Source: Candidatus Accumulibacter cognatus (GTDB lineage: Bacteria > Pseudomonadota > Gammaproteobacteria > Burkholderiales > Rhodocyclaceae). Taken from it: DNA of 64,000 nt. Made by a program: the position numbers and the translations under genes. The notes beneath the pieces are model-generated. The model saw only the letters and a program-made list of their open reading frames with translations. It was not told the origin of the DNA and did no database searches. The stretch spans positions 1,359,553 to 1,423,552 of the forward strand of contig CP058708.1 of NCBI GenBank assembly GCA_013414765.1. Reading direction: 5' to 3'. This document shows, piece after piece, positions 7,055 through 31,196 of this stretch. Position 1 is the stretch's first letter, and each line of letters starts with the position of its first letter.

Positions 7055-7083
7055 CCCTGTTTTTTTATTTCCCGGCATCCGCC

Positions 7084-8205: not shown

Positions 8206-8210
8206 AGTTA

Positions 8211-8331: not shown

Positions 8332-8423
8332 GGCGGCTGTTAATTTTTCACTCCCGCAGCATGTTCTGCACGATATCCTAACGGGGAGCAGGAGTGGAGA
8401 TCTTGCTCGGGAATCTGTTACCG

Positions 8424-9512: not shown

Positions 9513-9519
9513 GGCTGAT

Positions 9520-10845: not shown

Positions 10846-10928
10846 CCGGGAGAGCTTCGGCACGGGTAGAATGTGGCAAACCGCCATGTTACTCCCATTT
10901 CCACTCCCATTCTCCAGATTGCCCCGCC

Positions 10929-12383: not shown

Positions 12384-12512
12384 GATTGCGGGGCGGCCCG
12401 CTACGTCTCACCTGCTCAATGCCCGCATGGAGTGAACCCAAGTACAGAGGATGGTCGCACGAGGTCATGCTCCAATGCGCCTACGGCGTGACAAGAAGCA
12501 GGGAGGCTAGAT
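12384..12512. other. Left boundary of the defence island
   Basis: 129 bases between rng and the helicase gene. No tRNA, attachment-site repeat or terminator hairpin was recognised. A GGGAGG Shine-Dalgarno motif sits at 12501-12506, 6 bases before the TTG start of the helicase gene. No matching direct repeat was found at the right edge of the island. Confidence 0.5.
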
Positions 12513-15500
12513 TTGAACGTCTTCGATTTCCGCCAGCACATCGTCAACGAGTACTCGGAGTTCACCCGCAGCTTTACGCGCATCAAGGCCGAGGACATAC
12601 AGTCGTACGTCACCAAGGCATACGACTCGCAGAAGTACTGGCCCGAGCCGCTCATCCAGGTTAACCCGAATTTCAAACCCGGAGGAACCGTTCAACAGCT
12701 CGTGCAAGCTGGGCAGTTACACCCTACGTGCGCGGAGATTTTCCGCCTGGGCAAGAACGAGTCATCCGTCGGGGTTCCGCTGCCCCTGCACACCCACCAG
12801 CAAGAGGCCATCCGCTTCGCCGCAGCGGGTGAGAGCTATGTGATGACCACCGGCACTGGCTCCGGCAAGTCTCTTGCGTATTTCATTCCCATCGTCGACG
12901 CTTGTTTGAAGGCGAGGCTGGCCGCGTCGGAGCGGCGGACCCGAGCCATTGTCATCTATCCGATGAACGCGTTGGCGAACAGCCAGTTGGAGGAATTGAA
13001 GAAGTTCCTCGGCAGCGAGCCCGGCCGGCGGCCGGTCACCTTCGGCCGTTACACCGGCCAGGAGGATGACGCAGAACGCCAAGCGATGGCGGCCAATCCG
13101 CCGGACATCCTGCTGACCAACTTCATGATGCTCGAATTGCTCATGACGCGGCAGAACGAGCACGACCGCGTGGTGATGCGCAATGCCAAAGGGCTGCGCT
13201 TCCTCGTTCTGGACGAACTGCATACGTATCGCGGGCGCCAGGGAGCCGATGTGGCCCTGCTGGTTCGCCGTGTTCGCGAGGCCCTCGGGGATAAACTGGT
13301 GTGCATCGGCACCTCTGCGACGATGGCGACCGATGGCACGGAGAGGGAGCACAACACTGCGGTGGCCAGAGTGGCCACGCGGCTATTTGGCACCGCCATT
13401 CCCAGCCACAACATCGTCACGGAAACCCTGCAACGCGTGACACCAGCAACGGAAACACTGAAGACGGTTGCTCCAGTGTTGGCCGCTGCGATCGATGCAG
13501 GTGTACCGAATATCTCCTTCGACGAGTTGGCCACACATCCCATGTCGGTCTGGGTCGAACTGACGCTTGGCCTGGACTATGAAAGTGGCAAGCCGAGGCG
13601 GGCGCGTCCCAAGACGCTGAAGCAAGCGGCGATTCTCCTGGCCGAGGCATCGGGGCGACCTGAGGATGTATGCCGGAGATACCTAGAGCAGTTCCTGCTG
13701 CGCGCCTACGGTGTGATGGATGACGCCGGCAAGCCGCTATTCGCATTCAAACTGCACCAGTTCATCTCTGGTGGCGGCAAGGTCTATTCAACCCTCGAGG
13801 CCCCTGGGAAACGCGAGATCACACTCGATGGTCAGCAGTTCGTAGCCGGCGACCGGAGTCGCCACCTCTACAACCTCCATTTCTGCCGTGACTGCGGCCA
13901 GGAGTACGTGCCCGTTTGGGATGTCGACGGGCCGGAGGGGCGAGCCTTCGAGCGACGGAGCATTGACGAACGCCAACACGAGGATGACGGCGTGAAGTTC
14001 GGCTTTCTAATGCCGGACGCCGCAGGCATCTGGAACGACGCTGACATTGAGCGCTACCCGGAAACTTGGGTCGAGGAGCGCGCCGACGGCGAGTGGCGCA
14101 TCAAGTCGAGCTACCGCAAGTACGTACCACAAGCGGCAAAGGTGCGGCCGGATGGAGTCACGACAACTGAAGGCGGGCTGCGTGCTTGGTTTATTCCGGG
14201 GAGCTTCCGCTTCTGCCTCGGGTGTGGCACGACCCACTCAACCTCGGGGAAGGACTCGTTGCGATTGACGTCGCTATCCGGCGAGGGTCGAAGCTCGGCA
14301 ACGACGATGCTGACTTTGGCATCGCTGCGCTACCTGTACGAGCAGGACGAACACCTCGGTGCCGAGGCCAAGAAGGTCTTGGGCTTCTCAGACAACCGCC
14401 AAGACGCCGCGCTTCAGGCAGGCCATTTCAATGACTTCGTGCAAGTCCTGCTAACGCGAGCTGCGCTGCTCGCAGCCTTCACCAAGGACGACGGTCGGGC
14501 CTTGTCCGAGAAGGAGGTGGCCAATGCCGTGTTCGAGGCACTCGGCTTCGACCGCGACGACCCGGGCGCTCGTGCAGAGTACATGCAGCAACCGGATGTC
14601 AAAGGCAATACACGGCGCCAGGTGCAGGATGCCATGCGGGCAATCCTGGGCTATCGGAGTTTCTTCGACCTGCGCCGCGGCTGGCGCTTCAACAACCCCA
14701 ACCTCGAACAACTTGGGCTCGTCCGCATCAACTATCAGGATATTGACGACCTCGCGGCAGACGCCGACCAATGGGTCAATGCTCCCCAGGTGCTTCGGGC
14801 CGCCAATGCGCAAGAGCGCGCCGCAGTCTTGCGCGTTCTTTTCGAGACCATGCGCCAGGGCTTGTGCATTGCCACCCGTTACCTCGATCGGACTGAGCTC
14901 GACCAATTACGCACGCAGAGCTATGCCAACCTCCGCGAGCCCTGGGGATTCACTGAGGATGAGCGCCCCGTTCCAGCACGCTGGTTTGTCACACGCAGGC
15001 CGAAAGACCACGTAGGTCATCGTGGTCGGAAGCTCAATCTCGACGATTTCCTGGTCATTGGTTCAAGTCGTTCGCGGATCGGGCGCGAACTAAAGAAATC
15101 CAGCACATGGGGTGGAGGCAACCCGTATGTGACCCAGATCAAGGACGACACTTACCCGGAAGTCATCGCCGCACTACTGAAGGCGGCTGAGAGCTACGGC
15201 CTCGTCCGACAAGAGGAGACAGACATAGGAGTTACGGGTTGGCAACTGAATGGCGCTGCTCTGCTCTGGACTCCGGGTGAGGGGACCAGTCCGAAGCAAT
15301 CAAATGACAATCGGTTCTTCCGCAACCTGTACCGAAACATTGCGGGGATGCTTGCCAACCCAGAGCACGAGCTCTTCGATTTCGAGGCGAGGGAGCACAC
15401 GGCGCAAGTCGAGCAAGACGACCGCCTCGAGCGCGAGGCGCGTTTCCGCTTCACCGACAAGGACCGCAAGGAGTGGCGCGACAAGAAAGGTAGCGAGCTC

Positions 15501-17834
15501 GAATGGCTGCCCGTTCTGTTTTGCTCGCCGACCATGGAGCTGGGGGTCGACATCTCGTCGCTCAACACCGTCTACATGCGCAACGTGCCACCCACACCCG
15601 CCAACTATGCCCAGCGCAGCGGCCGAGCCGGGCGAGCAGGTCAGCCGGCGCTGGCGATTACCTACTGTGCGGCGCAAAGCCCGCACGACCAGTACTACTT
15701 CCGTGACCCGGTGCGAATGGTCCATGGGCAGGTCAATCCGCCGACTCTGGACCTCGCCAACCGCGAACTCGTGCAGAGCCATATGCATGCCATCTGGTTG
15801 GCCGAGACCGGCAAGAAGCTCGACAGCAGCATTCGTGGCCTGCTCGACATGAGTCACCCGGCGGCCCTGCCCATCCTGGAGGAGCTGGCTGCCGACCTGG
15901 ACAGGCCCGAGGCCAAGAGGCGCGCCCATCAGCGTGGGCTGGCCGTCCTGGATATGCTCAAGGACGAGCTCACCCCGCAGCGCGCACCCTGGTTCACCGA
16001 GACATGGCCGGAGACCGCTTTCCAGTGCGCATACAAGGAGCTCGACGAAGCCCTGAAGCGCTGGCGCGATTTGTATCGCGCCACGGCGCGACAGATCGAG
16101 CTGAATTTCAAGATCGAGAACAACCCGGCGGCCAGCGAGCGCGAACGTCGAGAGGCGCAGCAGCGTCACAACGAAGCACGCAAGCAGCGCGACCTGCTGC
16201 TCGCCGGCGAGAGTGCCTTCAACTCGGACTTCTACACCTACCGCTACCTGGCGAGTCAGGGCTTCCTGCCCGGCTACAACTTCCCTCGCCTCCCTCTGCT
16301 GGCCTACATCCCCGCGCGCCGAGGCAACATCGGCCGCGAGAGCTTCCTCTCCCGTCCGCGCTTCCTGGCGCTGGGTGAGTTTGGTCCGTACAGCCTGATC
16401 TATCACGAAGGCAGCCAGTACCGGGTCACCAAAGCGCTACTCACCATCACCAGCCAGGACCAGGTCACCGAGGGCGCCCGCCTGGCCACAGAGGTGGCAC
16501 GTCTGTGTCCGTCCTGCGGCTATGGTCACTTCCGTTCGCAACGCGATGCCGACCGCTGCTTCTCTTGTGGTGCCTCGTTGGCGGCTGCCGAGGAGGTCAA
16601 GCACCTGTATCGCATCGAGAACGTGTCCACCAAGCGCGCGGAGCGCATCACCGCCAACGAGGAAGAGCGGGTGCGCCAAGGCTACGAGATGCAGACCACC
16701 CTGCAATTCGCCGAGGCGGACGAGCGGTTGCAGAAGCTCACTACCGAGGTACTGGATTCCCAGGGTCCGCTGCTGGAGCTTCAGTACGGCCCGGCGGCCA
16801 CCGTCTGGCGCATGAACTTTGGTTGGCGCCGCCGCAAGGACACGAAAGTGCTGGGGTTCATGATGAACTCGATTACCGGCCACTGGGTCGGCGGCGTCGA
16901 TGATGCCGGAGAAGAGAGCGGAGACGACGTGCCGCCGGACAAGACGCCGCCGCAGCGCATCGTTCCCTACGTCGAGGATCGCCGCAACATCCTCATCATA
17001 CGGCCTCACCACGGTCTGGGCGAACTGTCGGCGTCCACGTTGGCCACGCTGCAGTACGCACTCAAGCGCGGCATCGAGTCCGTGTACCAGCTCGAAGAGA
17101 GCGAGCTGATGGCCGAGCCCTTGCCGACGCGTGACAACCGGCAATCCCTCCTGTTCTATGAAGCCGCCGAGGGCGGTGCCGGCGTCCTGACCCGCCTCGC
17201 GACCGAGTCCAGCGCACTGGCGGCCGTGGCTGCCGAGGCGCTGGAAATCATGCACTTCAAGCGCCCGGCCGGAGGGCAGCCGTGGGTCAAGGCTGCGCTC
17301 GACGAGGAGCTGGGCGACGACGGCCAGCCTATCTGTGAGGCCGGCTGCTACAAATGCCTGCTGTCCTACTATAACCAGCCTGACCACCCGCTCATCGACC
17401 GCCAGGACAAGGAGACCGGTGGCTTGGTTCTCGAAATGCTGTGCCGCCTTACGCAGTCCGAAGCCAAGCTTGGTACTCATGGGCGGGCACCCGAGCAACA
17501 CAGCGCCGAGTTGGCTCGTACCGCAGGCAGTTCGCTGGAGCATGCCTGGCTGGCATATGTCGAGCAGCATGGCCACCGCAAGCCCGACCGTGGGCAGCAC
17601 ATTATCGCCTTGGCGCAGACCTGCGCCGATTTCTTCTACGACGACTACCAGCTGGCGGTTTTCATCGACGGCCCCCACCATGAAGCCGAGGTTCAGCAAA
17701 CCCAGGACGAGGCCATCACCCGGCGCCTGGAGGAGCAAGGCTACCTGGTCGTTCGCTTCTCGCGGATCACCAGCGAATGGCCCACTGTCTTCGCCGCCCA
17801 TGCCGACCTGTTCGGTGCCAGCAAGAACCAATAA
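12513..17834 (+). CDS. YprA-family DEAD/DEAH helicase with DUF1998 and C-terminal nuclease-like domain
   Basis: Encodes 1773 residues from a TTG at 12513 that has a GGGAGG site 6 bases upstream. Helicase motifs: Walker A TTGTGSGKS (residues 112-120), DELH box (234-237), GTSAT motif III, and QRSGRAGR motif VI (1034-1041). Several cysteine pairs occur, including CPSCG and CFSCG. The DUF1998 zinc site is CEAGCYKC (Cys1608, 1612, 1615). The last about 100 residues look like a DUF559/Vsr-type nuclease: Asp1706, then FIDGPHH with Asp1719, then VVRFSR. This fits DruE of Druantia and other YprA/MrfA-type helicases more than the split DrmA/DrmB of DISARM. It likely translocates on DNA and may cut it. 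It is followed 10 bases later by a DrmD-like helicase. The defence role is inferred from family and context. Confidence 0.9.
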   Translation: MNVFDFRQHIVNEYSEFTRSFTRIKAEDIQSYVTKAYDSQKYWPEPLIQVNPNFKPGGTVQQLVQAGQLHPTCAEIFRLGKNESSVGVPLPLHTHQQEAIRFAAAGESYVMTTGTGSGKSLAYFIPIVDACLKARLAASERRTRAIVIYPMNALANSQLEELKKFLGSEPGRRPVTFGRYTGQEDDAERQAMAANPPDILLTNFMMLELLMTRQNEHDRVVMRNAKGLRFLVLDELHTYRGRQGADVALLVRRVREALGDKLVCIGTSATMATDGTEREHNTAVARVATRLFGTAIPSHNIVTETLQRVTPATETLKTVAPVLAAAIDAGVPNISFDELATHPMSVWVELTLGLDYESGKPRRARPKTLKQAAILLAEASGRPEDVCRRYLEQFLLRAYGVMDDAGKPLFAFKLHQFISGGGKVYSTLEAPGKREITLDGQQFVAGDRSRHLYNLHFCRDCGQEYVPVWDVDGPEGRAFERRSIDERQHEDDGVKFGFLMPDAAGIWNDADIERYPETWVEERADGEWRIKSSYRKYVPQAAKVRPDGVTTTEGGLRAWFIPGSFRFCLGCGTTHSTSGKDSLRLTSLSGEGRSSATTMLTLASLRYLYEQDEHLGAEAKKVLGFSDNRQDAALQAGHFNDFVQVLLTRAALLAAFTKDDGRALSEKEVANAVFEALGFDRDDPGARAEYMQQPDVKGNTRRQVQDAMRAILGYRSFFDLRRGWRFNNPNLEQLGLVRINYQDIDDLAADADQWVNAPQVLRAANAQERAAVLRVLFETMRQGLCIATRYLDRTELDQLRTQSYANLREPWGFTEDERPVPARWFVTRRPKDHVGHRGRKLNLDDFLVIGSSRSRIGRELKKSSTWGGGNPYVTQIKDDTYPEVIAALLKAAESYGLVRQEETDIGVTGWQLNGAALLWTPGEGTSPKQSNDNRFFRNLYRNIAGMLANPEHELFDFEAREHTAQVEQDDRLEREARFRFTDKDRKEWRDKKGSELEWLPVLFCSPTMELGVDISSLNTVYMRNVPPTPANYAQRSGRAGRAGQPALAITYCAAQSPHDQYYFRDPVRMVHGQVNPPTLDLANRELVQSHMHAIWLAETGKKLDSSIRGLLDMSHPAALPILEELAADLDRPEAKRRAHQRGLAVLDMLKDELTPQRAPWFTETWPETAFQCAYKELDEALKRWRDLYRATARQIELNFKIENNPAASERERREAQQRHNEARKQRDLLLAGESAFNSDFYTYRYLASQGFLPGYNFPRLPLLAYIPARRGNIGRESFLSRPRFLALGEFGPYSLIYHEGSQYRVTKALLTITSQDQVTEGARLATEVARLCPSCGYGHFRSQRDADRCFSCGASLAAAEEVKHLYRIENVSTKRAERITANEEERVRQGYEMQTTLQFAEADERLQKLTTEVLDSQGPLLELQYGPAATVWRMNFGWRRRKDTKVLGFMMNSITGHWVGGVDDAGEESGDDVPPDKTPPQRIVPYVEDRRNILIIRPHHGLGELSASTLATLQYALKRGIESVYQLEESELMAEPLPTRDNRQSLLFYEAAEGGAGVLTRLATESSALAAVAAEALEIMHFKRPAGGQPWVKAALDEELGDDGQPICEAGCYKCLLSYYNQPDHPLIDRQDKETGGLVLEMLCRLTQSEAKLGTHGRAPEQHSAELARTAGSSLEHAWLAYVEQHGHRKPDRGQHIIALAQTCADFFYDDYQLAVFIDGPHHEAEVQQTQDEAITRRLEEQGYLVVRFSRITSEWPTVFAAHADLFGASKNQ

Positions 17835-17844
17835 AGAATAAGCG

Positions 17845-20790
17845 ATGAATTCACCGACCCCCGAGTTCCATCCCGGCAGCCTGGTCTCGGCCCGCGGCCG
17901 TGAATGGATTGTCCTTCCCGAGTCCGACATGGACACCCTGCGCTTGCGTCCACTGGGTGGCGGCGAGAAGGACGAATCACTCCTCTACCTGCCGCTCGAG
18001 CGACAGCCTGTCCGGCCCGCCACCTTTCCTTGGCCGCGTGTCGACCAGGCGAGCAATCATTCGGCCAGCCAGCTCCTGCTCGATGCGTTGCAGCTCAAGC
18101 TGCGCAATGGGGCAGGACCGTTTCGCAGCTTCGGCAATATCGCGGTCGAGCCGCGCGCCTACCAGCTCGTGCCGCTGCTGATGGCGCTCAAGCAGGCAAC
18201 GATCCGCCTCTTGATTGCCGACGACGTAGGCATCGGCAAGACCATCGAGGCAGCCCTGATCGCGCGGGAAATGCTGGACCGGGGAGAAGTCCAGCGCCTG
18301 ACGGTGCTCTGCCCGCCGCACCTGTGCGAGCAGTGGCAGCGCGAGCTCGCCGAGCGCTTCCACATCCATGCGCCGGTGGTCCGCACGGCCACCGCCGCCC
18401 GGCTGGAGAAGGATTTGCCTCCGGGCGCATCGCTTTTCGACGCCCACCCGTTCACCGTCGTCAGCCTAGACTACATCAAGTCCGAGCGGCGTCGCGAAGC
18501 CTTCCAGCGCTTCTGTCCGGAATTCGTCATCGTCGACGAGGCCCACACGTGTACCCACGGTGGGCAAGGGCGCCAGCAGCGTTACCAACTGCTCAAGGGA
18601 CTGGCCGAAAATGCGGACCGTCACCTGGTGCTGCTGACGGCGACGCCCCACAGCGGCGACGAGAACGCGTTCTACAACCTGCTGGGCCTGCTGCGGTCGG
18701 AATTCACCGCCCTCAAGGATCTGCCCGCAGGCAGCAGGACTGACCTGCGCGACGAGTTGTCCCGTCATTTCGTGCAGCGCCGCCGGCCGGACATCGCCGA
18801 GTGGCAGGACAGCTCGATGTTCCCGGAGCGCAAGACCAGCGAAGTCACCTACCGGCTCACGGGAGCCTGGGGCCAGCTCTTCAACGACGTGCTGACCTAT
18901 GCCCGGGAGCTGGTGGAGCGCGCCGAGGGACGCGCCTTGCAGGAGCAACGGATGAACTGGTGGGCGGCCCTGGCGCTGCTGCGCTGCATCTCGTCATCGC
19001 CAGCCGCCGCTGTCAACGCCCTGCGCACGCGCTTGAACGGCGCCATCGCACCGGGTGACGACCGCGAACTGACGCTGGAAGGGTCGCGTTCAAGCGACCG
19101 TTTGCGATTGGAGGACATCGACCAGCAAGGGGAGGAACGTGTGCTCGACGGCCGCGAAGATGCGCTGTCTACCGACGACATCGAACCCGCCGCCCAGACT
19201 GAGGAGACCGCCCGCCTGCAAGAACTCATCGCCGCCGCCGAACGGCTGGCGGCCCCCGGCAACGACCCCAAGCTCGAGCAGCTGCAGGCCCATCTCCAAG
19301 GCTTGCTCAAAGACGGGTTCCTGCCGGTCGTCTTCTGCCGCTACATCGCCACCGCCCATTACCTCGCCGATTTTCTGCGCGCCAAGTTCAAGGACGTCAC
19401 CATCAAGGCCGTCACCGGCGAATTCACGCCCGGCGAACGCGAGGCGGCCGTCGAGGAGCTGGGGGAAAGCGACAGGCGCTTCCTGGTGGCGACCGATTGC
19501 CTGTCCGAGGGCATCAACCTCCAGAACCTGTTCACCGCCGTCGTGCACTACGACCTCTCCTGGAATCCGACCCGTCACGAACAGCGGGAGGGCCGCGTCG
19601 ACCGCTTCGGGCAGAAGGCCCGCGAGGTGCGCAGCACGATGCTCTACGGCGAGGACAACCCGGTCGACGGCGCGGTGCTGCAGGTCATCCTGCGCAAGGC
19701 CGAGAGCATCCGCAAGGAGCTGGGCGTGCTGGTGCCCATGCCCGATGACGAAGGCAAGCTCACCCAGGCGCTGCTCAACGCCGTGCTGTTGCGCAAGACC
19801 AACCCCGTCGGCAAGGTTGCGCAGGCCAGCTTCGACTTCGGCGAGCCGGCCAGGGAAATCGAAGCCGCGTGGCAAAGCGCCCGCGAGAAGGCGGCCCGGA
19901 ACCGTTCCATCTTTGCCCAGCGCCGCCTGAAGCCCGAGGACGTTCTGCCGGAATGGCGCAAATCGGCTGCCGTGCTGGGCGGCGAGGACGATGTCGCCCG
20001 TTTCGTCGCCCGCGCGGTGGCCAAGCTCGGCGTGCCCCTGGAAGAGTGCCGACGGCTCCCAGGGCTGGGCTCGGCCCAGCCCGCCCCGCAAGGGAGTCAG
20101 GAAAACTTGGGACGGCCCGGCGTTTTCCTGGGAGCCCACCACAAGCTGAATATCGACCAACTGCCGCTGACGGTGCGCGAACGCCTCGCCGCCGACGGCT
20201 TCATCGGCACCTTACGCGTCAGCTTCCACCAGCCGCCGGCCGCGGGTTCGCTCTTCATCCACCGCACCCATCCCATCGTTGCCGCGCTCGCCGACACGCT
20301 GCTCGAGCGCGCCCTCGAAGAGACCGCCGACGCCAGCGACGCCGATGCCGTGGCGCGCGCCGGCGCCGCCTTCGTTGGCCATGTCGGCCTGAGGACGACC
20401 GTGCTGCTCTTGCGCCTGCGCCATCAGCTTTCCGTGACCCGTGGCGCCGCGACGCGCCTGATGCTGTGCGAAGAAACCATTGCCGTGTCCGTCGCCGGTT
20501 CCGGGCATCCGGCAGTGTTGGCGCCCGACGCAGCCCGATCGTTGCTCGGTGCCGAGGCGGTTCGGAACATGCCGCCGCCGATCCGGGATCGACACCTGCG
20601 GCAAGCGCTCGACATGCTCCCCGCCTGGACGCCGCAATTGGCAGCAATGGCCAAGGAACGCGCGCAGGCCTTGCTCCAGGACCATCGACGCGTGCGTGAG
20701 GCGGCCGAGGCCAAGGGCGCCTACCAGGTCACCGCCAGCCTGCCGGTGGATGTCATGGGGCTGTACGTGCTTGTCCCTTCGTTGGGTTGA
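17845..20790 (+). CDS. DrmD-like SNF2 helicase
   Basis: Encodes 981 residues. It is an SF2/SNF2 ATPase with Walker A DDVGIGKT (residues 126-133), DEAH box (231-234), LLTATPHSGDENAF (motif III region), and the helicase C motif NPTRHEQREGRVDRFGQ beginning at 574. The long C-terminal part resembles DrmD of class 1 DISARM, which is of similar length. It starts 10 bases after the YprA-like helicase stop, with only a weak Shine-Dalgarno site, so it is probably translationally coupled. About residues 737-764 are encoded by an in-frame 83-bp palindromic element (20054-20136) that gives a Gly/Pro-rich insertion. In DISARM, DrmD is thought to act with the methylase and the helicase in discriminating incoming DNA. 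The name is by similarity of architecture; a search should confirm DrmD rather than another RapA-like helicase. Confidence 0.82.
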   Translation: MNSPTPEFHPGSLVSARGREWIVLPESDMDTLRLRPLGGGEKDESLLYLPLERQPVRPATFPWPRVDQASNHSASQLLLDALQLKLRNGAGPFRSFGNIAVEPRAYQLVPLLMALKQATIRLLIADDVGIGKTIEAALIAREMLDRGEVQRLTVLCPPHLCEQWQRELAERFHIHAPVVRTATAARLEKDLPPGASLFDAHPFTVVSLDYIKSERRREAFQRFCPEFVIVDEAHTCTHGGQGRQQRYQLLKGLAENADRHLVLLTATPHSGDENAFYNLLGLLRSEFTALKDLPAGSRTDLRDELSRHFVQRRRPDIAEWQDSSMFPERKTSEVTYRLTGAWGQLFNDVLTYARELVERAEGRALQEQRMNWWAALALLRCISSSPAAAVNALRTRLNGAIAPGDDRELTLEGSRSSDRLRLEDIDQQGEERVLDGREDALSTDDIEPAAQTEETARLQELIAAAERLAAPGNDPKLEQLQAHLQGLLKDGFLPVVFCRYIATAHYLADFLRAKFKDVTIKAVTGEFTPGEREAAVEELGESDRRFLVATDCLSEGINLQNLFTAVVHYDLSWNPTRHEQREGRVDRFGQKAREVRSTMLYGEDNPVDGAVLQVILRKAESIRKELGVLVPMPDDEGKLTQALLNAVLLRKTNPVGKVAQASFDFGEPAREIEAAWQSAREKAARNRSIFAQRRLKPEDVLPEWRKSAAVLGGEDDVARFVARAVAKLGVPLEECRRLPGLGSAQPAPQGSQENLGRPGVFLGAHHKLNIDQLPLTVRERLAADGFIGTLRVSFHQPPAAGSLFIHRTHPIVAALADTLLERALEETADASDADAVARAGAAFVGHVGLRTTVLLLRLRHQLSVTRGAATRLMLCEETIAVSVAGSGHPAVLAPDAARSLLGAEAVRNMPPPIRDRHLRQALDMLPAWTPQLAAMAKERAQALLQDHRRVREAAEAKGAYQVTASLPVDVMGLYVLVPSLG
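20054..20136. repeat. 83-bp palindromic element inserted in frame in the DrmD-like gene
   Basis: The outer arms GGCTCCCAGG (20054-20063) and CCTGGGAGCC (20127-20136) are exact inverted repeats. Inside are two more perfect hairpins: GGGCTGGGC/GCCCAGCCC (20062-20070, 20074-20082) and CAGGAAAAC/GTTTTCCTG (20098-20106, 20122-20130). The reading frame continues through it. This resembles small palindromic repeat elements that can insert within coding regions. Confidence 0.7.
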
Positions 20791-20813
20791 ACGACGCCCG
20801 AGCGCTGTATAAC
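20787..20813 (+). promoter_or_regulatory. Possible sigma70-type promoter of the vapBC-like pair
   Basis: TTGAAC at 20787-20792 and TATAAC at 20808-20813 with a 15-base spacer, overlapping the stop codon of the DrmD-like gene. The spacer is short, so strength is uncertain. A strong Shine-Dalgarno run AAGGAGGT (20829-20836) follows before the antitoxin start. Confidence 0.4.
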
Positions 20814-20840
20814 ATATAGACATGTGATAAGGAGGTGGCT

Positions 20841-21077
20841 ATGCATTTCAACATCTATCTGGACGACGAAACCGGAAAGCGGCTCACTGAGGCCGCGCAG
20901 CAAGCCGGCGAGAACCGCAATGCCGTCATCCGGCGCGCAGTTCAGGAGTGGCTTGCCCGTCGCGTCGAGCCGCAATGGCCGGAGACAGTGCTCTCTTTTA
21001 CCGGAGAGCCGGACATGCCGGCATTTGAAGCCAATCGGGAGCACTTGGGATCCGCCAAGGCAGATCCGCTGGCATGA
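20841..21077 (+). CDS. Ribbon-helix-helix antitoxin (VapB-like)
   Basis: Encodes 78 residues from the ATG at 20841, with AAGGAGGT 4-5 bases upstream. The N-terminal 45 residues (FNIYLDDETGKRLTEAAQQAGENRNAVIRRAVQEWL) form a beta strand and two helices typical of a ribbon-helix-helix DNA-binding domain. The C-terminal tail would wrap the toxin. Its stop overlaps the toxin start by 4 bases (ATGA), the usual antitoxin-first arrangement. Such antitoxins repress their own promoter as a complex with the toxin. Its place between the DrmD-like helicase and the methyltransferase suggests it stabilises or guards the island. Confidence 0.82.
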   Translation: MHFNIYLDDETGKRLTEAAQQAGENRNAVIRRAVQEWLARRVEPQWPETVLSFTGEPDMPAFEANREHLGSAKADPLA

Positions 21078-21478
21078 AGTATCTGCTCGATACCTGCACG
21101 GTTAGCGACTTCGTTAAAGGCGAGCCCAGTGTCCTGTCCACGCTCAAGAGCACTGCCCCTGCCCAGATCGCCATTTCCACCGTGACCCGCATGGAGATCG
21201 AATACGGGCTCCTCCTCAACCCCCTGCGCGCCCGGAAGCTGGCGCCGGTCCTGGACGCCCTCCTGTCCGCCATGGCGATCTTGCCCTTCGACGAAGCCGA
21301 CGCGAAAGCCGCCGCTGCGATCCGCGCGGCGCTGCGCCGGGAAGGACGCCCCATCGGTCCCTACGATTGCCAGATTGCGGGCTGCGGCTTGGCGCGCGGT
21401 TTGGTGGTCGTGACCGCGAACGAAGCGGAGTTTCGGCGCATCGGCGGGCTGCGCATCGAGAACTGGCGGGAGGCATGA
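21074..21478 (+). CDS. PIN-domain toxin (VapC-like ribonuclease)
   Basis: Encodes 134 residues, the usual VapC length. PIN motifs: Asp6 in LLDTCTVSDF, the conserved acidic residue in RMEIEYGLL near 40, and the third acidic site in PYDCQIAG, followed by VTANEAEF near the C-terminus where an Asn takes the usual position. VapC toxins are Mg-dependent endoribonucleases that cut tRNA or rRNA when the antitoxin is lost. It overlaps the antitoxin by 4 bases and appears intact. The following 144 bases up to 21623 contain no gene. Confidence 0.85.
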   Translation: MKYLLDTCTVSDFVKGEPSVLSTLKSTAPAQIAISTVTRMEIEYGLLLNPLRARKLAPVLDALLSAMAILPFDEADAKAAAAIRAALRREGRPIGPYDCQIAGCGLARGLVVVTANEAEFRRIGGLRIENWREA

Positions 21479-21622
21479 GCGTACAGCGAAGTGGCATGGC
21501 ATGCAGGCCGTTGGCAGGCGAACGATCAGGATGGAAATGTTCGCGCGCGCATTCCTTGGCGACCTTGTTTCGCACATGCCGCAGCGCCTGTAATGGCTAC
21601 TTGACCTCTGTATCCTGACTCC

Positions 21623-21828
21623 ATGCCCCGCCGCACCACTGACCAACTCGCCTATGCGGCGATCCGCATCGAAGGCGGCCTCATCCCCGCCGACGAACTG
21701 TCACGCCTGACCACGCTCGCCGACGCGGACAGGACCGAGCAGTCCGAAAGCCACTACCGCATCCCCAAGGGCCTGAAACTGCGCGACGAGATTGCGCGCT
21801 ACTGGAAGATCGCGCTCAACCTCTGGCT
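21623..21828 (+). pseudogene. 5' fragment of the DISARM/PglX-like adenine methyltransferase gene
   Basis: Starts at the ATG at 21623 and encodes 68 residues (MPRRTTDQLAYAAIRIEGG at the start, ARYWKIALNLW at the end) before the IS begins at 21829. The frame runs into the element and stops at 21913. Removing the IS and one copy of the 5-bp target duplication joins this fragment in frame with 24261-28491: ...NLW-LDFQRLRSR..., giving a 1478-residue protein. It is the original N-terminus of the methyltransferase, severed from the catalytic part. Confidence 0.92.
21824..21828. repeat. Target site duplication TGGCT, left copy
   Basis: TGGCT directly before the left inverted repeat. The identical TGGCT is at 24256-24260 after the right inverted repeat. 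A 5-bp duplication marks insertion by a DDE transposase. Confidence 0.9.
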
Positions 21829-21844
21829 CAGACAACCTGATCTC
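21829..21844. repeat. Left terminal inverted repeat of the IS
   Basis: 16 bases, an exact inverted match to 24240-24255. The transposase stop codon (21843-21845) overlaps its inner edge. Confidence 0.93.
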
Positions 21845-24059
21845 ACGGATTTTGCGACGTACCGAGTTGCAGAATCAGGCGGAGGTTGGAGCGTGGGAAG
21901 AGCGTCTTGGTAGAGTTCAACTCGTCACAGAGTTTGCGGACGGCGCGGTCCGACACGCCATTGGCCATGTGGTGGAGGCGTACGGTCAGGGTGCCGGCGT
22001 TAGGATCGGGCAGCAAGTCCGCTTCGGTCGTGTAGATCGCGCGCAGCAAGCTGCGTGCCTCGTCCGGGCGCGAGAGAAGCGGTGCCAGGACGTTGGCCAT
22101 GGCCGTTTCCGCGCGATAGGCAATCATCTTGAGCGTGTCGAGTAGCTGCTTGCTGTGGGTGCTCAGCCGGCGGAACTGCTGTTCTTCCGGCAAATCCTTG
22201 AGGGCGAGATGGGAGGGGGTTTCTTTACGTTGTTCCTTCAGGGCCTTGAGTTCGTCCTGCAGATGTTCGATCTCGTCGTGGGCAGCGGCTTTTTTCGCGA
22301 CAAAGGCCTCGACTTTCGCTGGTTCAATCGTCTCGTTGAGGTTAAGCGCGCCGAATTGGGCGAGCCTGCGGCTGAGCTTGCTGGTCAGCGCGCGAACCTG
22401 GCCGTCGAGGGTTCGGCGAGCTGGGTTGACAACGCGTGCGGTATCAGGAATTTCTTCCATCTGATAATCCACCAGGCGGTCCAGGGCAAAGTGTTCACGC
22501 GCATACTTGAAGAAGTTTTCCTGAGACCACCTGGCGAACAGGGTGGCCGCCAGGCGCCCTATGCCAGATTGGTAATCCGTGCTGATCAGGGCGACCTGGC
22601 GACCGGTGTCACAGACCTTGCGTATCTCGCGTACCCACACCACGCCGCCGAGCAGCGTTCCCCGTTCGGCGAGTCGCATGCGTACCTGCTGGCCACGGCG
22701 AAGTTCGATCGTGGCGTCGACGAATTCCTCGGGCGACCAATCGTCGCCGGCGTACTTGCGATAGGAGAGGCAGGCAACGCGACGCGCCTTCAGACGCTTG
22801 AACAACTCTGGGCTATAGCCTTCGCGATCGAAGACCAGGGTGAAGCGATGGCGCAGCGGGTCGGCCGCGAGCGCTTCGGCGCTCGGCTGGCCCGGGATGT
22901 CCCGTTCCAGCCGAGGCAGGATCTCGCCTTCAAGAACCTTGATCAGGCCCGGGTCGACGGATTGCGTGACCCGGAAGAAGGGCTGCCCGTCGATCGCGTT
23001 GACCCAGTAATCGGCGGTCGCACGCTGGCACAGCCGCTGCCGCGCGATGTAGTGGCGCGGCAATTGGGTCTGCTCGCCGTAATACACCCGCACATGCGCG
23101 TCGACGTAGAGGATGCCCGCTTGTTCCGGCGCCGCCGCCATCCAGCGCCGACACAGGTCGGCACTCCATTTCTCGGCATGATCGCCCTGGCTCAGGAGCC
23201 CTATCTTCTCGCGCAGGGTGCGCACTTCGGGAATCCGATCGAGACCCAGTAACTTGCCCCACTCGCCTGGCGCACACGAGCGCAGAGACTCGACCGATTC
23301 CAGTCGCGCCAGGGCCATGAAGGCAATCAACATCAACAGACTGTCGATCCCGTAGTAACCCGCTGGCAGCGGAAGACCCTCCGACCCGTCGAGCAATCCG
23401 ACCGCCAATAAGGCAGGCAGCGCGAACAGCACCCCGCCACGCGGTACATCAACGGCCGCCTGGAACTGCGGAGCAACGGCATTCAGCCCGCCCACGCTGG
23501 CCGCCACCCGGGCAACCACGTTGCTCGCCCCAACCCCCATCGGGGCCGCGCTGTCGAGTGCGCTCCGCTCGCTCTTGGTGCTCGAGACGACCGCGCAGAC
23601 CCCTTTCCCCACCGGAACATGCAGCCGTCCGGCACGCACCGCCTTCGACAGGGTGTCGCTCTTGATCCCCAGTTCTGTCGCAACGCTCGGGACCGTCTGT
23701 CCGCCGTCGAACAGGGCCTGCGCCTGCTGCAACACCTCTGCCGTCAGCACCGCCGGACCCCGGCGCCGCGGCGGAACGTAGAACCCTTTCGGCCCCTCTT
23801 GCCGATAGCGCTTCAACGCTCGCTTGACACTCAACGCCGGCACCCCGAAGGCGCGCGACACGTCCACCACCCGAAGATGACCCTGCGCGATAAACTGCGC
23901 CGTAATCATCCGGAAGGTCGCCAAATCCTCTTCCCCATGACTAAACACCGGCAGGACGCCGTGGAAATACACGACTCGCCCGTCCTGCTTCCCGACAGAC
24001 AGCAGGTCCTTGATCGGCGTCACGGCATCCGGAAAGATCGGCAACAGCAGTTGGGGCAT
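21843..24059 (-). CDS. IS transposase, 738 aa, DDE type
   Basis: I chose the ATG at 24059 (MPQLLLPIFPDAV) because GGGAGA lies about 7 bases upstream; an alternative start at 24095 adds 12 residues. The N-terminus has two helix-turn-helix-like regions (VVDVSRAFGVPALSVKRALKR and TVPSVATELGIKSDTLSKA) that would bind the IS ends. Likely catalytic acidic residues are in LYVDAHVRVY, LVFDREGYS and WSQENFFKYA, the last resembling the DDE glutamate region. The C-terminal part has a coiled-coil segment around DEIEHLQDELKALKEQ. The gene fills nearly the whole element. It runs opposite to the interrupted methyltransferase gene. The frame is intact, so the IS may still be mobile. Confidence 0.9.
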   Translation of the reverse strand: MPQLLLPIFPDAVTPIKDLLSVGKQDGRVVYFHGVLPVFSHGEEDLATFRMITAQFIAQGHLRVVDVSRAFGVPALSVKRALKRYRQEGPKGFYVPPRRRGPAVLTAEVLQQAQALFDGGQTVPSVATELGIKSDTLSKAVRAGRLHVPVGKGVCAVVSSTKSERSALDSAAPMGVGASNVVARVAASVGGLNAVAPQFQAAVDVPRGGVLFALPALLAVGLLDGSEGLPLPAGYYGIDSLLMLIAFMALARLESVESLRSCAPGEWGKLLGLDRIPEVRTLREKIGLLSQGDHAEKWSADLCRRWMAAAPEQAGILYVDAHVRVYYGEQTQLPRHYIARQRLCQRATADYWVNAIDGQPFFRVTQSVDPGLIKVLEGEILPRLERDIPGQPSAEALAADPLRHRFTLVFDREGYSPELFKRLKARRVACLSYRKYAGDDWSPEEFVDATIELRRGQQVRMRLAERGTLLGGVVWVREIRKVCDTGRQVALISTDYQSGIGRLAATLFARWSQENFFKYAREHFALDRLVDYQMEEIPDTARVVNPARRTLDGQVRALTSKLSRRLAQFGALNLNETIEPAKVEAFVAKKAAAHDEIEHLQDELKALKEQRKETPSHLALKDLPEEQQFRRLSTHSKQLLDTLKMIAYRAETAMANVLAPLLSRPDEARSLLRAIYTTEADLLPDPNAGTLTVRLHHMANGVSDRAVRKLCDELNSTKTLFPRSNLRLILQLGTSQNP

Positions 24060-24231
24060 CCGATTCTCCCGCAAGATCGGCGTGGCGCCGGCCAAAAAAC
24101 CGGACTATCGCCAATTTTCGGTATCTTCGCAATATCTGCCACGCCCCTCGCCATAAACCCGCGCCAGTGCTTTGTCAGCGCGCTAACCGTATGAACTACT
24201 GCGGATTCGTGATGCCACTCGTGCAAACGTC

Positions 24232-27200
24232 ATGGCGCCGAGATCAGGTTGTCTGTGGCTGGATTTCCAGCGCCTGCGCAGCCGCCAGGACGTCGACGCG
24301 CAGGCGGTGACGGCGCGCGAGTTCATCGTCCCGCTGCTGCGCGACGTGCTGGGCTTCGCCGACCTGGACCGGGCGCCCGCCATCGAGCAGGCAGGCCACC
24401 GCTATCCAATCGGTCACGCGGCCCTCGGCGGTCGGGTGCCGCTGGTTTTCGCCGCCCACGATCAGCCGCTCGATACGCCGGCGGAGCGCTTCGGTGATCC
24501 CAATCCCGATACGGGCAAGGTCCGTCGGCGCAGTCCCTTCATGCTGGCGCAGGAAGCGCTGAACGCATCCGATACCAGTCTCTGGGCCGTCGTCACCAAC
24601 GGTTTGCGGTTGCGCATCCTGCGCGACAACCCCAGCCTGACCCGCCCCGCCTATCTCGAGGTCGATCTGGAGGCCGTGTTCAGCGAAGAGCGGTATGCGG
24701 ACTTCACTGCCTTCTGGCTGCTCACCCACGCCAGCCGCTTCGGCGCCGCGCAGGGTGAGAAACCCGGCGGGCCCGAAGATTGCCCCTGGGAGCGTTGGCG
24801 CGTCGCCGGGCAGGAAGCCGGCGTCGCCATCCGCCGCAACTTGCGCTACCAGGTGACGGAAGCGTTGCGGGCGCTGGGCACCGGCTTTCTCTCCCATCCG
24901 GACAACGCCGGGCTGCGCGAATCCATCCAAACCGAAGGGGAAGCGGGCAAGCAAGCCTTCTTCGAGGAACTGCTGCGCCTGGTCTACCGCTTCATTTTTC
25001 TGGCCACCGTCGAAGACCGCTTAGACCCGGCGACGGGCGTCAAGCTGGTGTTCGCGCCGGCAACGCCAGCGGCCATCCAGCAGCGCTATCTGGCTGGCTA
25101 TTCGTTGACCTGGCTACGCGAACGTGCGGCACGGCGCAGCCAACACGACCGGCACGGCGATCTCTGGCAGGCGCTGGGCATCACCTTTGCTGCGCTCGCC
25201 CGCGGCGAGCCTGCTTTGGGACTGCCGGCCCTGGGCGGCTTGTTCGACGCCGACCAGTGCCCACGGCTCGACGGCGCGCAACTGGAGAACCGTTGGCTGT
25301 TGGCCGCCATTTTCCAGTTGGGATACTTCCGCGACACCACCGGCCTCTCCCGCGTCAACTACCGGGACATGAAGTTCGAGGAGCTTGGCAGCGTATACGA
25401 AAGCCTGCTGGAGCTGGTACCGGCCCTCCAGGGGCTGGCCCACCCCGCGCATGCCCGGCTGGCCTTCGTGGGCGATGACAGCGACAGCGACGCCAACAAC
25501 CGCGGCAACACCCGCAAGCTGACCGGCTCCTACTACACGCCGGACAGCCTGGTGCAGGAACTCATCAGATCGGTGCTCGAGCCAGTGATCGCCAATACCG
25601 TCAAAGCCAATCCCGAGCGTCCGGTCGAGGCACTGCTCGAACTCACCATCTGCGACCCAGCCTGCGGCAGCGGTCACTTCCTGGTCGCCGCCGCACTGCG
25701 CCTGGGCGACGAGATCGCCTTGCAGCGCGCCGCCGTCGAGCGCGATGGCGGCGTCCCCACACCGCTCGACCTCCGGCACGCACGGCGCGATGTCGTCAGC
25801 CGTTGCCTCTTCGGCATCGACAAGAACCCCATGGCGATCCAGCTCGCCAAGACCGCCCTGTGGCTCGAAGCCTACACACCGGACCTGCCGCTCTCGTTTA
25901 TCGACCACCACCTGCGGGTGGGCGATGCGCTGCTCGGCGTGCTCGACCCCAAGGTGCTGGAGAACGGGATTCCCGACGAGGCCTATGGCGCGCTCTCCGG
26001 CGACGACAAGGCAGTCGCCTCGCTGCTCAAAAAACAGAACAAGGCGGACCTCAAGAGCTGGCAGGCCATCGCCACGGGTGACTTGTTTACCCGAGCCGGT
26101 CTTGCCGCGCAGGCCGTGACGGTGGACAGGCTTGCCGACGACACGGCCGGGCACGTTGCTGCCAAGCGCGCTGCCTGGCAGCAGGCGCAAGGCACGGCGC
26201 AACGCTCGATACTGGCGCGGCTGGCCGACGCCTATGTGGCCGCTTTCCTGGCGCCCAAGCTGACTGGTGCGGACGCAATCGTGCCGCTCTCGGGTTACCT
26301 GTGGGGTGTGCTCAGTGGCCAGCCGACCAACGATGAGGTGGAGGACACCGCCCACGCCCTGTGCCGCAAATACGGCGTCTTCCACTGGTGGCTGGCCTTT
26401 CCACAGGTCGCGGCCAAGGGCGGATTTTCGGTGATGCTCGGCAATCCGCCATGGGAACAACTACAGCTAAGCGAAGAGGAGTTCTTTGCGTCGCGCGCGC
26501 CGTCGATTGCGGCACTTGCTGGCGACAAGCGCAAACAAGCTATCACAAGCCTTGAGACCGATGCCCCTTGGCTTTGGAGTGCCTTCCAAAACGCTAAGCG
26601 ACAGTACGATGCGGCAAACCAATTCTTACGTGCGGGAGGACGCTTTCCGCTTACCGCGGTCGGCAAGCTGAATACCTATGCGCTGTTTGCAGAGGTCTTC
26701 CTACAAGCAACGAGGGGCAACGGGCGCGCGGGCTTCATCGTCCCCACCGGCATTGCGACCGACGACTCCACCAAAGCCTATTTCGGCCACATTGCGGCGG
26801 GTGGTCGGCTGGCGAGCCTGTACGACTTTGAAAATCGTGAGGCGGTTTTCCCGGCCATCGACAGCCGGATCAAGTTCTCGCTGCTGACCCTCGGCGCGGC
26901 GCCAGAAGCTGCATTCATCTGCTTTGCGACCCGAGCCAGCCAACTGGCAGACCCACGCCGTCGCTTTACACTGACGCCGGACGAGTTCTCGCTGATCAAC
27001 CCGAACACCCGCACCTGCCCCGTGTTCCGCAGCGAGCGCGACGCCGAGTTGACCAAGAAGCTCTACCGAGCCGCGCCGGTGCTCATCGAAGAAGAAGTCA
27101 GGGGCGCCGACGGCCAGATGCTTAAGCCCGAACTCAATCCCTGGGGCCTCACGTTCTCCCAAGGCCTGTTCAACATGACCAGCGACAGCAGTCTGTTCCA

Positions 27201-28491
27201 CGGCGAGCCGGGGTCGCCCGGTGTGCCCCGGCGCCTGCCCTTGTACGAGGCGAAGATGATTCACCATTTCGACCACCGCTGGGCAACCTACGTCGATGCC
27301 GACGGCAAACCGGGCGAGGTCGAAACCACCGACGTGACCCTGGTGCAAAAGACCGACCCGGACTTCACCGTGCGCCCGCGCTATTGGGTGGACGAGCGCG
27401 AGGTGCTCGCCCGCATCGCCCGCGCGCCTGCGCGCGTGGCCAAGGCCTGGCTGGCCCTGCACGCCGCCACGCCGCGTACCATCGACGACGCCTTGTCCGA
27501 CCTGCTGCTGACCCTGGCCGCGTGGGTGGCCGGCGAACTCTTCAGCCGCGCCGCCGGCGAATCCAGCACCGACGACGGCTGGACGCCGCAGCGCGGCTTG
27601 CCGTACATCGCGCCCACCGAGGCGCAGCTCAAGGCCCGCTACGCCCCGCTGTCGCAGGCGCTGCTGGGAAGCGGGCTGACGACCAGGAAGGCGCTGGTCG
27701 AGTTCCCGAAATGGGCCGCGCAGAACCGGGACGTGCGCCTGTCCGACGCGGAACTGGCCGAGCTCGAGACCGCCCTGCAGACCGCCAATCTGGCGCCGGT
27801 GCTGCTGAGCCTGCTCGATACCTGGATGGACGCCCGCAGCCCGCGCTGGCTGATGGGCTGGCGGGATATTACGAATGCGACCAATGAACGGACCGTCATC
27901 GCATCGGTGGTGCCGCGGGTGGGCACTGGCGACACCCTGCTCCTGATGTTTCCGGACCCTGCGCTTGGCGCGCGGCTGGCAGCTCTGCTTGCCGACCAAT
28001 GCAGCCTGGTGCACGACTTCGTCGCGCGCCAAAAGGTTGGGGGCACTCATCTCAAGTATCACGTCAAGAAACAACTCGTTCACCTACCGCCTGAACGCTA
28101 CACGGCGCAAGCCCTCGACTTCATCGTCCCCCGCGTCCTCGAACTCACCTACACCGCCCACGACCTCTCCGCCTGGGCCGCAGACCTGGCGGAATACGAC
28201 CCGCGCAGGGGCGCGGGGCGCGGCCAGCCCTTCCCCTGGAGTGATGGCAAAAGCGCCGAACGCCGCGCCCGACTGCGCGCCGAGCTCGACGCCTGTTATG
28301 CCCGCCTCTACGGCCTGAACCGCGACGAGCTGCGCTATATCCTCGACCCCGCCGACGTGATGGGTACCGACTACCCCTCCGAGACCTTCCGTGTGCTCAA
28401 GGAAGGCGAATTCCGCGCCTATGGCGAGTACCACACGCGGCGGCTGGTGCTCGAGGCGTGGGACCGCATGGCAACTGGAGATTTTCACTGA
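24232..28491 (+). CDS. N-terminally truncated PglX/DrmMI-like adenine-specific DNA methyltransferase
   Basis: The open frame begins with an ATG at 24232 that belongs to the right end of the IS; native sequence resumes at 24256. It encodes 1419 residues. Methylase motif I is CDPACGSGHF (residues 474-483) and motif IV is NPPWE beginning at residue 738, typical of Eco57I/PglX-type N6-adenine methylases. The N-terminal part (FIVPLLRDVLGFADLD, REALNAS, VTNGLRLRILRDN) resembles the domain before the methylase core in PglX/DrmMI. About 68 native residues are lost. No Shine-Dalgarno site precedes the new ATG, so expression from the IS is uncertain. No brxC or pglZ is nearby, so BREX is unlikely. In DISARM the methylase marks host DNA as self. 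Its stop overlaps the start of the next gene (TGATG). Confidence 0.88.
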   Translation: MAPRSGCLWLDFQRLRSRQDVDAQAVTAREFIVPLLRDVLGFADLDRAPAIEQAGHRYPIGHAALGGRVPLVFAAHDQPLDTPAERFGDPNPDTGKVRRRSPFMLAQEALNASDTSLWAVVTNGLRLRILRDNPSLTRPAYLEVDLEAVFSEERYADFTAFWLLTHASRFGAAQGEKPGGPEDCPWERWRVAGQEAGVAIRRNLRYQVTEALRALGTGFLSHPDNAGLRESIQTEGEAGKQAFFEELLRLVYRFIFLATVEDRLDPATGVKLVFAPATPAAIQQRYLAGYSLTWLRERAARRSQHDRHGDLWQALGITFAALARGEPALGLPALGGLFDADQCPRLDGAQLENRWLLAAIFQLGYFRDTTGLSRVNYRDMKFEELGSVYESLLELVPALQGLAHPAHARLAFVGDDSDSDANNRGNTRKLTGSYYTPDSLVQELIRSVLEPVIANTVKANPERPVEALLELTICDPACGSGHFLVAAALRLGDEIALQRAAVERDGGVPTPLDLRHARRDVVSRCLFGIDKNPMAIQLAKTALWLEAYTPDLPLSFIDHHLRVGDALLGVLDPKVLENGIPDEAYGALSGDDKAVASLLKKQNKADLKSWQAIATGDLFTRAGLAAQAVTVDRLADDTAGHVAAKRAAWQQAQGTAQRSILARLADAYVAAFLAPKLTGADAIVPLSGYLWGVLSGQPTNDEVEDTAHALCRKYGVFHWWLAFPQVAAKGGFSVMLGNPPWEQLQLSEEEFFASRAPSIAALAGDKRKQAITSLETDAPWLWSAFQNAKRQYDAANQFLRAGGRFPLTAVGKLNTYALFAEVFLQATRGNGRAGFIVPTGIATDDSTKAYFGHIAAGGRLASLYDFENREAVFPAIDSRIKFSLLTLGAAPEAAFICFATRASQLADPRRRFTLTPDEFSLINPNTRTCPVFRSERDAELTKKLYRAAPVLIEEEVRGADGQMLKPELNPWGLTFSQGLFNMTSDSSLFHGEPGSPGVPRRLPLYEAKMIHHFDHRWATYVDADGKPGEVETTDVTLVQKTDPDFTVRPRYWVDEREVLARIARAPARVAKAWLALHAATPRTIDDALSDLLLTLAAWVAGELFSRAAGESSTDDGWTPQRGLPYIAPTEAQLKARYAPLSQALLGSGLTTRKALVEFPKWAAQNRDVRLSDAELAELETALQTANLAPVLLSLLDTWMDARSPRWLMGWRDITNATNERTVIASVVPRVGTGDTLLLMFPDPALGARLAALLADQCSLVHDFVARQKVGGTHLKYHVKKQLVHLPPERYTAQALDFIVPRVLELTYTAHDLSAWAADLAEYDPRRGAGRGQPFPWSDGKSAERRARLRAELDACYARLYGLNRDELRYILDPADVMGTDYPSETFRVLKEGEFRAYGEYHTRRLVLEAWDRMATGDFH
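24240..24255. repeat. Right terminal inverted repeat of the IS
   Basis: Exact reverse complement of 21829-21844. It overlaps the first codons of the truncated methyltransferase frame. Confidence 0.93.
24256..24260. repeat. Target site duplication TGGCT, right copy
   Basis: Matches 21824-21828. TGG encodes the Trp at the restored junction NLW-LDF. Confidence 0.9.
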
Positions 28492-31150: not shown

Positions 31151-31196
31151 GTACCATCGACGGCATGACACCGCTTGAGCTTAAGGAAACATCATC

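Follow-up and report, generated by a model that had tools for sequence, protein, structure and literature searches.

The ARMADA defence systems were described only in 2025, and Type II is the type that was tested (PMC12458937). According to the main text of that paper (Bell et al. 2025), Type I generally consists of genes for a YprA helicase, a BrxHII-like helicase, and a PglX-like methyltransferase, in that order, and the Type I helicase carries a Vsr-type nuclease. By the same account, the protection afforded by the E. coli Type II system involves no growth arrest and is lost on deletion of any of the system's four genes, armB among them (PMC12458937). Here, we analyzed a 64,000-nucleotide stretch of the Candidatus Accumulibacter cognatus genome (GCA_013414765.1, contig CP058708.1, positions 1,359,553 to 1,423,552), referred to below as the window. 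It likely contains a Type I ARMADA anti-phage operon, located in an island flanked by rng, the RNase G gene, and a DUF1631 gene, and the methyltransferase gene of this operon appears to have been lost recently to an insertion sequence (IS). The name ARMADA had been mentioned in a sequence-only reading of the locus, made by a model without database searches, and the genes and their order do match Type I as presented in the main text of PMC12458937.

Operon genes and the interrupted methyltransferase gene

The operon comprises armC, armA, and armB (Table 1), and the three open reading frames (ORFs) are all on the plus strand, as the sequence-only reading had noted. That reading had also described a 1773-aa YprA/DUF1998 helicase with a DUF559 end, and profile matches bear this out: ArmC matches the Pfam models DEAD (PF00270, 1e-25), Helicase_C, MZB/DUF1998 (PF09369, 1.2e-9), and DUF559 (PF04480). 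The DUF559 match is partial (residues 1700-1750 against positions 41-89 of the 109-position profile; 23.4 bits with a cut-off of 20.6) and points to a Vsr-type domain at the C-terminus, a predicted nuclease. ArmC aligns with its relatives end to end. In an alignment of 57 rows, 409 positions are kept in at least 93%, including GTGSGKS near residue 110 and C-x3-C-x2-C at 1608-1615, and the paired cysteines 458/461, 568/571, 1332/1335, and 1349/1352 are near-invariant. In ARMADA Type I, the helicase is further expected to contain a BrxA-like domain, a zinc module of beta-barrel form, and a MarR-like insert. The second protein, proposed earlier as a 981-aa DrmD-like SNF2 helicase, was likewise confirmed by Pfam and DrmD matches. 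Among PADLOC models, PDLC02853, which is named DpdE, matches ArmA over its full length (residues 9-979, 677 bits), far above other DpdE models; it is conceivable that this model originated in ARMADA proteins.

The methyltransferase ORF (24232-28491) is matched by Eco57I-type and N6-methylase Pfam models and by the PADLOC DrmMI model (198.4 bits), and the motifs GSYYTPD, DPACGSGHFL, and GNPPWE are near-invariant across 44 rows. The PglX/DrmMI-like family proposed for it in the sequence-only reading thus stands, but the ORF is not the whole gene. The gene is broken by an IS after about 69 codons, its N-terminal piece lies upstream of the IS, and the first eight codons of the ORF lie inside the right end of the IS. 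The IS has perfect 16-bp inverted ends (21829-21844 and 24240-24255). Seven full-length, 100% identical copies of it are present in the genome, each bounded on both sides by a 5-bp direct repeat, which is TGGCT at armB. Because the copies are identical and each has its 5-bp duplication, the IS burst is recent and an assembly error is unlikely.

Relatives of the operon were drawn from 35 loci in GTDB genomes, from plasmids, and from further genomes; 62 stretches gave 61 loci after L087 had been removed as a duplicate of L012 (100% match). All three genes are present in 52 of the 61 loci, in every case co-directional and in the order C-A-B, and the loci from GTDB genomes alone are complete in 33 cases out of 35. 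Six of the nine incomplete loci are cut by contig ends (L020, L035, L121, L131, L135, and L138), and three are without partners (L124, L137, and L139); L137 and L139 have a short armC only. Among class-level genomes, 9 of 369 have a strong armC match (E ≤ 1e-100), and among phylum-level genomes 14 of 398 do, the own genome being counted in both; within the family, near full-length matches are present in 6 of 150 genomes, again including the own one. A search of phage records with armC gave three records, none of which covers 80% of it.

The comparison with these relatives indicates what was lost. By tblastn, the N-terminal piece of armB is 53-81% identical to 32 of the 35 GTDB-genome loci (78% in L003 and 81% in L007), and in all 47 loci where both pieces were detected it precedes the C-terminal piece on the same strand, at a distance of 3-63 bp. 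In the nearest relative, Aromatoleum toluvorans (L003, armC 94% identical), armB is a single open gene. Since this gene is open and the two pieces are adjacent in all 47 loci, intact armB copies do exist. No second armB was found in a search of the own genome. Judging from the sequence, ArmB lacks both its own start and the conserved N-terminal ~70 residues, and this ARMADA copy is probably silent in the source strain. A complete defence array, as pictured in the sequence-only reading, is therefore not supported; that reading had passed over the IS transposase gene (21843-24095, minus strand), the interruption of armB, and a pair of small genes between armA and armB (20835-21478).

A quick maximum-likelihood tree of armC was built from 46 rows, namely the window, 29 of the 61 loci, and 16 references, with L124, which has no partners, and the cut L135 included; six of the references were scored by PADLOC. 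The window and 29 co-found helicases lie on one side of a branch with a Shimodaira–Hasegawa-like support (SH-aLRT) of 100. The Type II helicase of the E. coli plasmid pLAO8 (L096) forms a separate group with five others, beside which the long-branched L148 is placed. Also outside the window group are four Druantia III-like rows (L143 and L145 were scored by PADLOC), one Druantia II row (L147), and four YprA-only rows. The assignment predicted from these sequences, a Type I operon of the order C-A-B with its helicase in the ARMADA I group, holds.

Several points weigh against our reading of a silenced Type I operon. The tree is a quick one in which long branches are joined, the program warns of them, and only its broad grouping was used. 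It was built without the authors' Type I reference WP_108720193.1, and the Type I label on its rows is our own, given to them as finds of the search. The activity experiments in the main text of PMC12458937 concern Type II and not Type I. As regards silence, the truncated ArmB ORF, 1419 aa from an ATG inside the IS, retains the methyltransferase motifs, and a truncated ArmB could be produced from the IS end. In 17 of 47 loci, mostly distant ones, the N-terminal piece is not the better conserved part of armB.

The main rival to silence follows the same lines: the operon would still work, the IS end giving a start codon (ATG at 24232) and perhaps transcription, and a slightly shortened ArmB would suffice. 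The open frame starting in the IS keeps both the S-adenosylmethionine (SAM) and NPPW motifs, and the C-terminal length of armB differs among relatives, so some changes are tolerated. On the other hand, a search for sigma-70-like promoters, which did not cover other promoter types, found none in 21500-24500 (mean of 0.5 in shuffled sequences). The lost segment is also better conserved than the rest of armB in 30 of the 47 loci overall, and in 26 of the 29 closer loci, those with a C-terminal piece at least 55% identical to that of the window (mean identity of 71% in the N-terminal piece vs 63%). We consider a working operon improbable.

Changes in armB can be noted in other loci as well. In Dechloromonas sp. 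SSD3 (L031, 18161-23544), a different transposase gene (377 aa, PF01609), flanked by copies of a short repeat, is located towards the 3' end of armB. The Deinococcus radiodurans plasmid pMP1 (L095, 19946-24975) carries a C-A-B ARMADA operon in which the annotation divides armB into two methyltransferase genes; ISDra3 adjoins its 3' end, and a HicA toxin gene and a McrB-family gene lie downstream. Preference of insertion sequences for armB was considered and no claim is made: only three of 53 loci (the window, L031, and pMP1) are concerned, and the chance of all three falling in armB is about 0.2, given that armB is about 1.5 times as long as armA. The loci were found through armC, so that losses of armC are under-counted. 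In none of the 53 loci is armA divided into separate ORFs, although L021 and L033 were flagged with a stop inside the alignment; such flags were raised for L013, L021, and L033, and an overrun of the alignment is possible. In the related loci L127, L128, and L129, armB is divided into at least two pieces, which in L128 and L129 are two ORFs about 0.5-0.6 kb apart; this perhaps represents a two-subunit methyltransferase. The splits in L122, L127, L128, and L129, and partly in L028, were treated as a two-gene arrangement or divergence and not as IS damage.

That the whole block is an island is indicated by its junction in two same-genus genomes. The RNase G and DUF1631 matches are 20.65 kb apart in the window vs 88 bp in G027 (L081; 16512 and 16601), and they abut in G006 (L083); the other three of the five same-genus stretches (L082, L084, and L085) matched the DUF1631 gene only, and the junction is informative in two. 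This suggests horizontal acquisition of the island. No tRNA was found in the window and no integrase among the island genes scanned. In G006 (L083 and L092), the DUF1631 gene is itself split into two pieces, separated by about 39 kb of the contig.

Other families considered for the operon

The operon could also be assigned to DISARM Class 1, its helicase being a fused DrmAB. ArmA does match DrmD (291 bits in PADLOC) and ArmB matches DrmMI (198 bits). However, the match of ArmA to the NCBIfam DrmD model (325.9 bits) is under its cut-off of 610, and the helicase scores far higher with the Druantia models DruE1 (308.9 bits) and DruE3 (285.3) than with DrmA (45.7), DpdJ reaching 89.6. The sequence-only reading had placed the helicase nearer to DruE than to DrmA and had found DrmC (phospholipase D, PLD) missing; the scores agree with the former, and no PLD nuclease was detected among the genes scanned. 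A profile search for DrmA references gave no match in any genome, its controls included, and carries no weight either way. We regard the DISARM assignment as highly unlikely.

A DNA-repair protein MrfA/YprA with chance neighbours, a reading to which we attach virtually no probability, is refuted by linkage and the tree: armC does belong to the wider YprA family (its nearest PDB sequences are two large helicases, 9tu7 and 9wae, and YprA 6znp, the last at 5e-24), but the tree sets the four YprA-only helicases (about 810 aa) apart, as a group of their own, from the long ArmC with its conserved partners armA and armB (MrfB was not searched for). Both the MrfA clade and the absence of linkage had been named in the sequence-only reading as grounds for abandoning a defence array. 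Overall, its observations are partly confirmed and its interpretation is partly supported.

Accessory slots and island cargo

Between armA and the N-terminal piece of armB, the window contains two overlapping genes, RHH_1 followed by PIN, neither of which has a PADLOC match. This is a VapBC-type layout, and the pair is a predicted toxin-antitoxin module. Its PIN protein and the one encoded at this position in L127 share 30% identity. The armA/armB junction holds 0.7-2.4 kb of extra DNA in 14 of 53 loci, the window included, and the content is of seven kinds (Table 1). In three of these loci, a HipA-like kinase gene is followed by a HIRAN-domain gene within the operon. The armC/armA junction is occupied in five loci, and in none of the 53 are both slots filled. 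All slot genes with a Pfam match above the cut-off are on the operon strand; in L036, one small ORF on the opposite strand matches DUF1902 just below the cut-off. Gaps of 142-330 bp (L095, L123, L133, and L134) were scored as empty, a divergent armB start or armC end probably having escaped detection.

On a helicase tree of the 52 complete loci and the window, the armA/armB slot requires at least 9 changes of occupancy and 11 of content, counts that stand without a background rate for insertions at other operon junctions. The armA/armB junction, a recurrent and apparently undescribed accessory slot, merits a full survey. We found no mention of such slots in the main text of PMC12458937, its supplements being outside the comparison, and the uses of the word "toxin" seen there concern ArmD of Type II and mobile elements.

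The meaning of these slots can be explained in two ways. The RHH/PIN pair may be a random hitchhiking toxin-antitoxin module without a link to ARMADA, to which we would give an even chance. It has no match in the relatives' loci compared by tblastn, and the slot is occupied in a minority of loci. Homologues of the slot genes also occur on their own: 14 of 150 family genomes have AAA_14/DUF4143 homologues, up to 81% identical, and the three genomes with the best matches (G030, G146, and G063) are without a strong armC match, ATPase_2 homologues (44-46% identical) are present in 3 of 150, and the flanks of ten slot-gene homologues, about 1.5 kb each, contain no arm genes. The ImmA-like gene was found in 2 of 150 family genomes; one of these is the query's own, and the other has a 37% match and a partial armC homologue on another contig. 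Against hitchhiking, the tree shows repeated filling of the same junction, with genes oriented like the operon. Distant lineages share two ATPase families at this position (L014 with L022/L037, 76%; L019 with L033, 70%), and the slot of L127 holds another PIN module with a different antitoxin.

Alternatively, and more tentatively, the armA/armB junction may be a standing slot for guardian modules (VapBC, Phd-PIN, HigBA, HipA-HIRAN, AAA_14-DUF4143, and ATPase_2-DUF234), with the armC/armA junction as a second slot for ImmA/IrrE-like genes. Such modules would sense that ARMADA is inhibited or has failed and would then arrest or kill the cell, as the RelE-bearing fourth subunit of Type II may do, and in the window the toxin module would have outlived the silenced system. 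This suggestion is modelled on PrrC, which is embedded in a Type IC restriction locus, and from the arrangement of the genes a PrrC-like guardian role for the RHH/PIN pair seems plausible.

Downstream of armB, the island carries further genes. The PD-T4-4 genes, which do not belong to ARMADA, show a frame break in the A subunit, which could reflect a pseudogene or a sequencing error; the IS in armB is less easily explained by such an error. The G+C content is 0.65-0.66 over 16-28 kb (IS included) vs 0.59-0.64 elsewhere in the window.

Table 1. Features of the window and contents of the accessory slots in related loci
Feature	Position or locus	Strand	Basis or remark
Island, all DNA between rng and the DUF1631 gene	12382-33032		Empty junction in two same-genus genomes
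armC, YprA-family helicase with C-terminal DUF559/Vsr-like (predicted) nuclease domain	12513-17834	+	TTG start, 1773 aa; Pfam, PADLOC, tree
armA, BrxHII/DrmD/RapA-like SNF2 helicase	17845-20790	+	981 aa; Pfam SNF2-rel_dom and Helicase_C
RHH antitoxin-like gene, armA/armB slot	20835-21077	+	PF01402, 3.8e-8 (scanned as 20841-21074)
PIN-domain (VapC-like) toxin gene, armA/armB slot	21074-21478	+	PF01850, 9.9e-16
armB, N-terminal piece, ~69 codons	21623-21828	+	tblastn against relatives
Insertion sequence, 2427 bp	21829-24255		16-bp perfect inverted ends, 5-bp target duplication
IS transposase	21843-24095	-	PF21804, 1.2e-180
armB, C-terminal piece, PglX/DrmMI-like adenine methyltransferase with SAM and NPPW motifs	24256-28491	+	PF07669, 6.7e-15
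PD-T4-4 A subunit, first part	28491-29471	+	PD-T4-4_A, 446 bits, profile 1-324 of 460 (scanned from 28458)
PD-T4-4 A subunit, last part, other frame	29539-29892	+	PD-T4-4_A, 150 bits, profile 350-458
PD-T4-4 B subunit, whole	29892-30464	+	PD-T4-4_B, 319.8 bits, 1-189 of 190
RNA-ligase-family protein, island cargo	30461-31150	+	PF09414, 2e-33
Schlafen AlbA_2/HATPase_c_4 protein, island cargo	31197-32786	+	PF04326 and PF13749
armA/armB slot: RHH-PIN	window
armA/armB slot: Phd-PIN	L127
armA/armB slot: HigB-like toxin, helix-turn-helix protein, HicB-like and weak MqsA-like matches	L036
armA/armB slot: HipA-like and HIRAN	L129 (8936-10622), L130, L136		HipA in two ORFs in L136
armA/armB slot: AAA_14-DUF4143 ATPase	L014, L022, L037
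armA/armB slot: ATPase_2-DUF234 ATPase	L019, L025, L033, L021		Scanned L021 ORF: DUF234 only
armA/armB slot: unnamed 223-aa ORF	L122
armC/armA slot: ImmA/IrrE-like	L012, L013, L017		Pfam 24.4 and 22.7, above the cut-off of 22.0; one at 21.9, just under
armC/armA slot: unnamed 249-aa ORF	L089
armC/armA slot: gap of ~1 kb, no recognisable gene	L018

Proposed mechanism and comparison with known systems

In the intact form of the system, ArmC would probably load on DNA with exposed single strands, unwind it, and cut it by means of the C-terminal Vsr-type nuclease. ArmA may act as a second translocase aiding ArmC, and ArmB may supply SAM-dependent recognition or modification; jointly, the proteins would destroy invading phage DNA without killing the cell. 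This scheme draws on the Type II experiments (main text of PMC12458937) and on DruE, described as a helicase-nuclease acting on intermediates that contain single-stranded DNA (PMC13192584). In the source strain, armC and armA are open and ArmB is incomplete, and the system is most likely silent.

The locus appears to be a natural knock-out of armB in which armC and armA stay open. This argues against the latter two being lethal in the absence of the methyltransferase. Unlike them, a classical restriction enzyme without its methylase is lethal. Since armC and armA are present in the cell and armB is not whole, the ArmC nuclease is suggested not to be lethal on its own, and the deletions of single Type II genes appear to agree with this (PMC12458937).

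Among the known systems, DISARM Class 1 shares with the window homologues of DrmD and DrmMI. It differs in that the window has no DrmA/DrmB pair and no DrmC among the genes scanned; DrmB and PLD models gave no match there (for ArmC, among the best 25 of 29 families). Druantia III is related through DruE, the PADLOC helicase family nearest to ArmC. Its nuclease, however, is of the PLD type (PMC12458937), and the window armC has no adjacent DruH, which is absent among the matches listed for the proteins at 10665-12380, 12513-20787, and 24232-32783 (at most 25 each for ArmC, ArmA, and ArmB). A separate Druantia III locus is present elsewhere in the same genome (L086, C1:3418000-3437500, 5782-15318), with DruH (380 bits) followed by DruE. 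Two ORFs, of 807 and 1317 aa, overlap and take up consecutive parts of the DruE profile, an apparent frame break, and a JetA gene (744 bits) comes after them.

PrrC resembles the RHH/PIN pair in being a toxin-type gene embedded in a defence operon. It is an anticodon nuclease of the EcoprrI Type IC locus, a guardian activated when EcoPrrI restriction is inhibited, as reported in PMC12707154. The window pair differs in encoding a PIN-domain protein, a predicted toxin.

ARMADA Type II of the E. coli plasmid pLAO8 has homologous armA, armB, and armC. Its genes follow the order A-B-C with a fourth helicase gene after them, and its helicase belongs to the other group of the tree. The fourth protein, ArmD, is a GajB-like helicase with a RelE-like domain (PMC12458937). 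No ArmD-like gene was found among the genes scanned downstream of the window armB, and the A-B-C-D order does not occur there. The pLAO8 plasmid itself (L096) is mobilizable and of the IncY group; its four-gene array has the Type II order and lies close to a tyrosine integrase. For Type I, which is without the fourth subunit of Type II, the recurrent slots offer concrete candidate partner genes.

The closest system is ARMADA Type I, with which the window shares the gene order and the Vsr-type domain, a predicted nuclease, at the C-terminus of the helicase, as far as the main text of PMC12458937 describes them. The window operon differs from it in two respects: its armB is interrupted by the IS, and the RHH/PIN pair is located between armA and armB.

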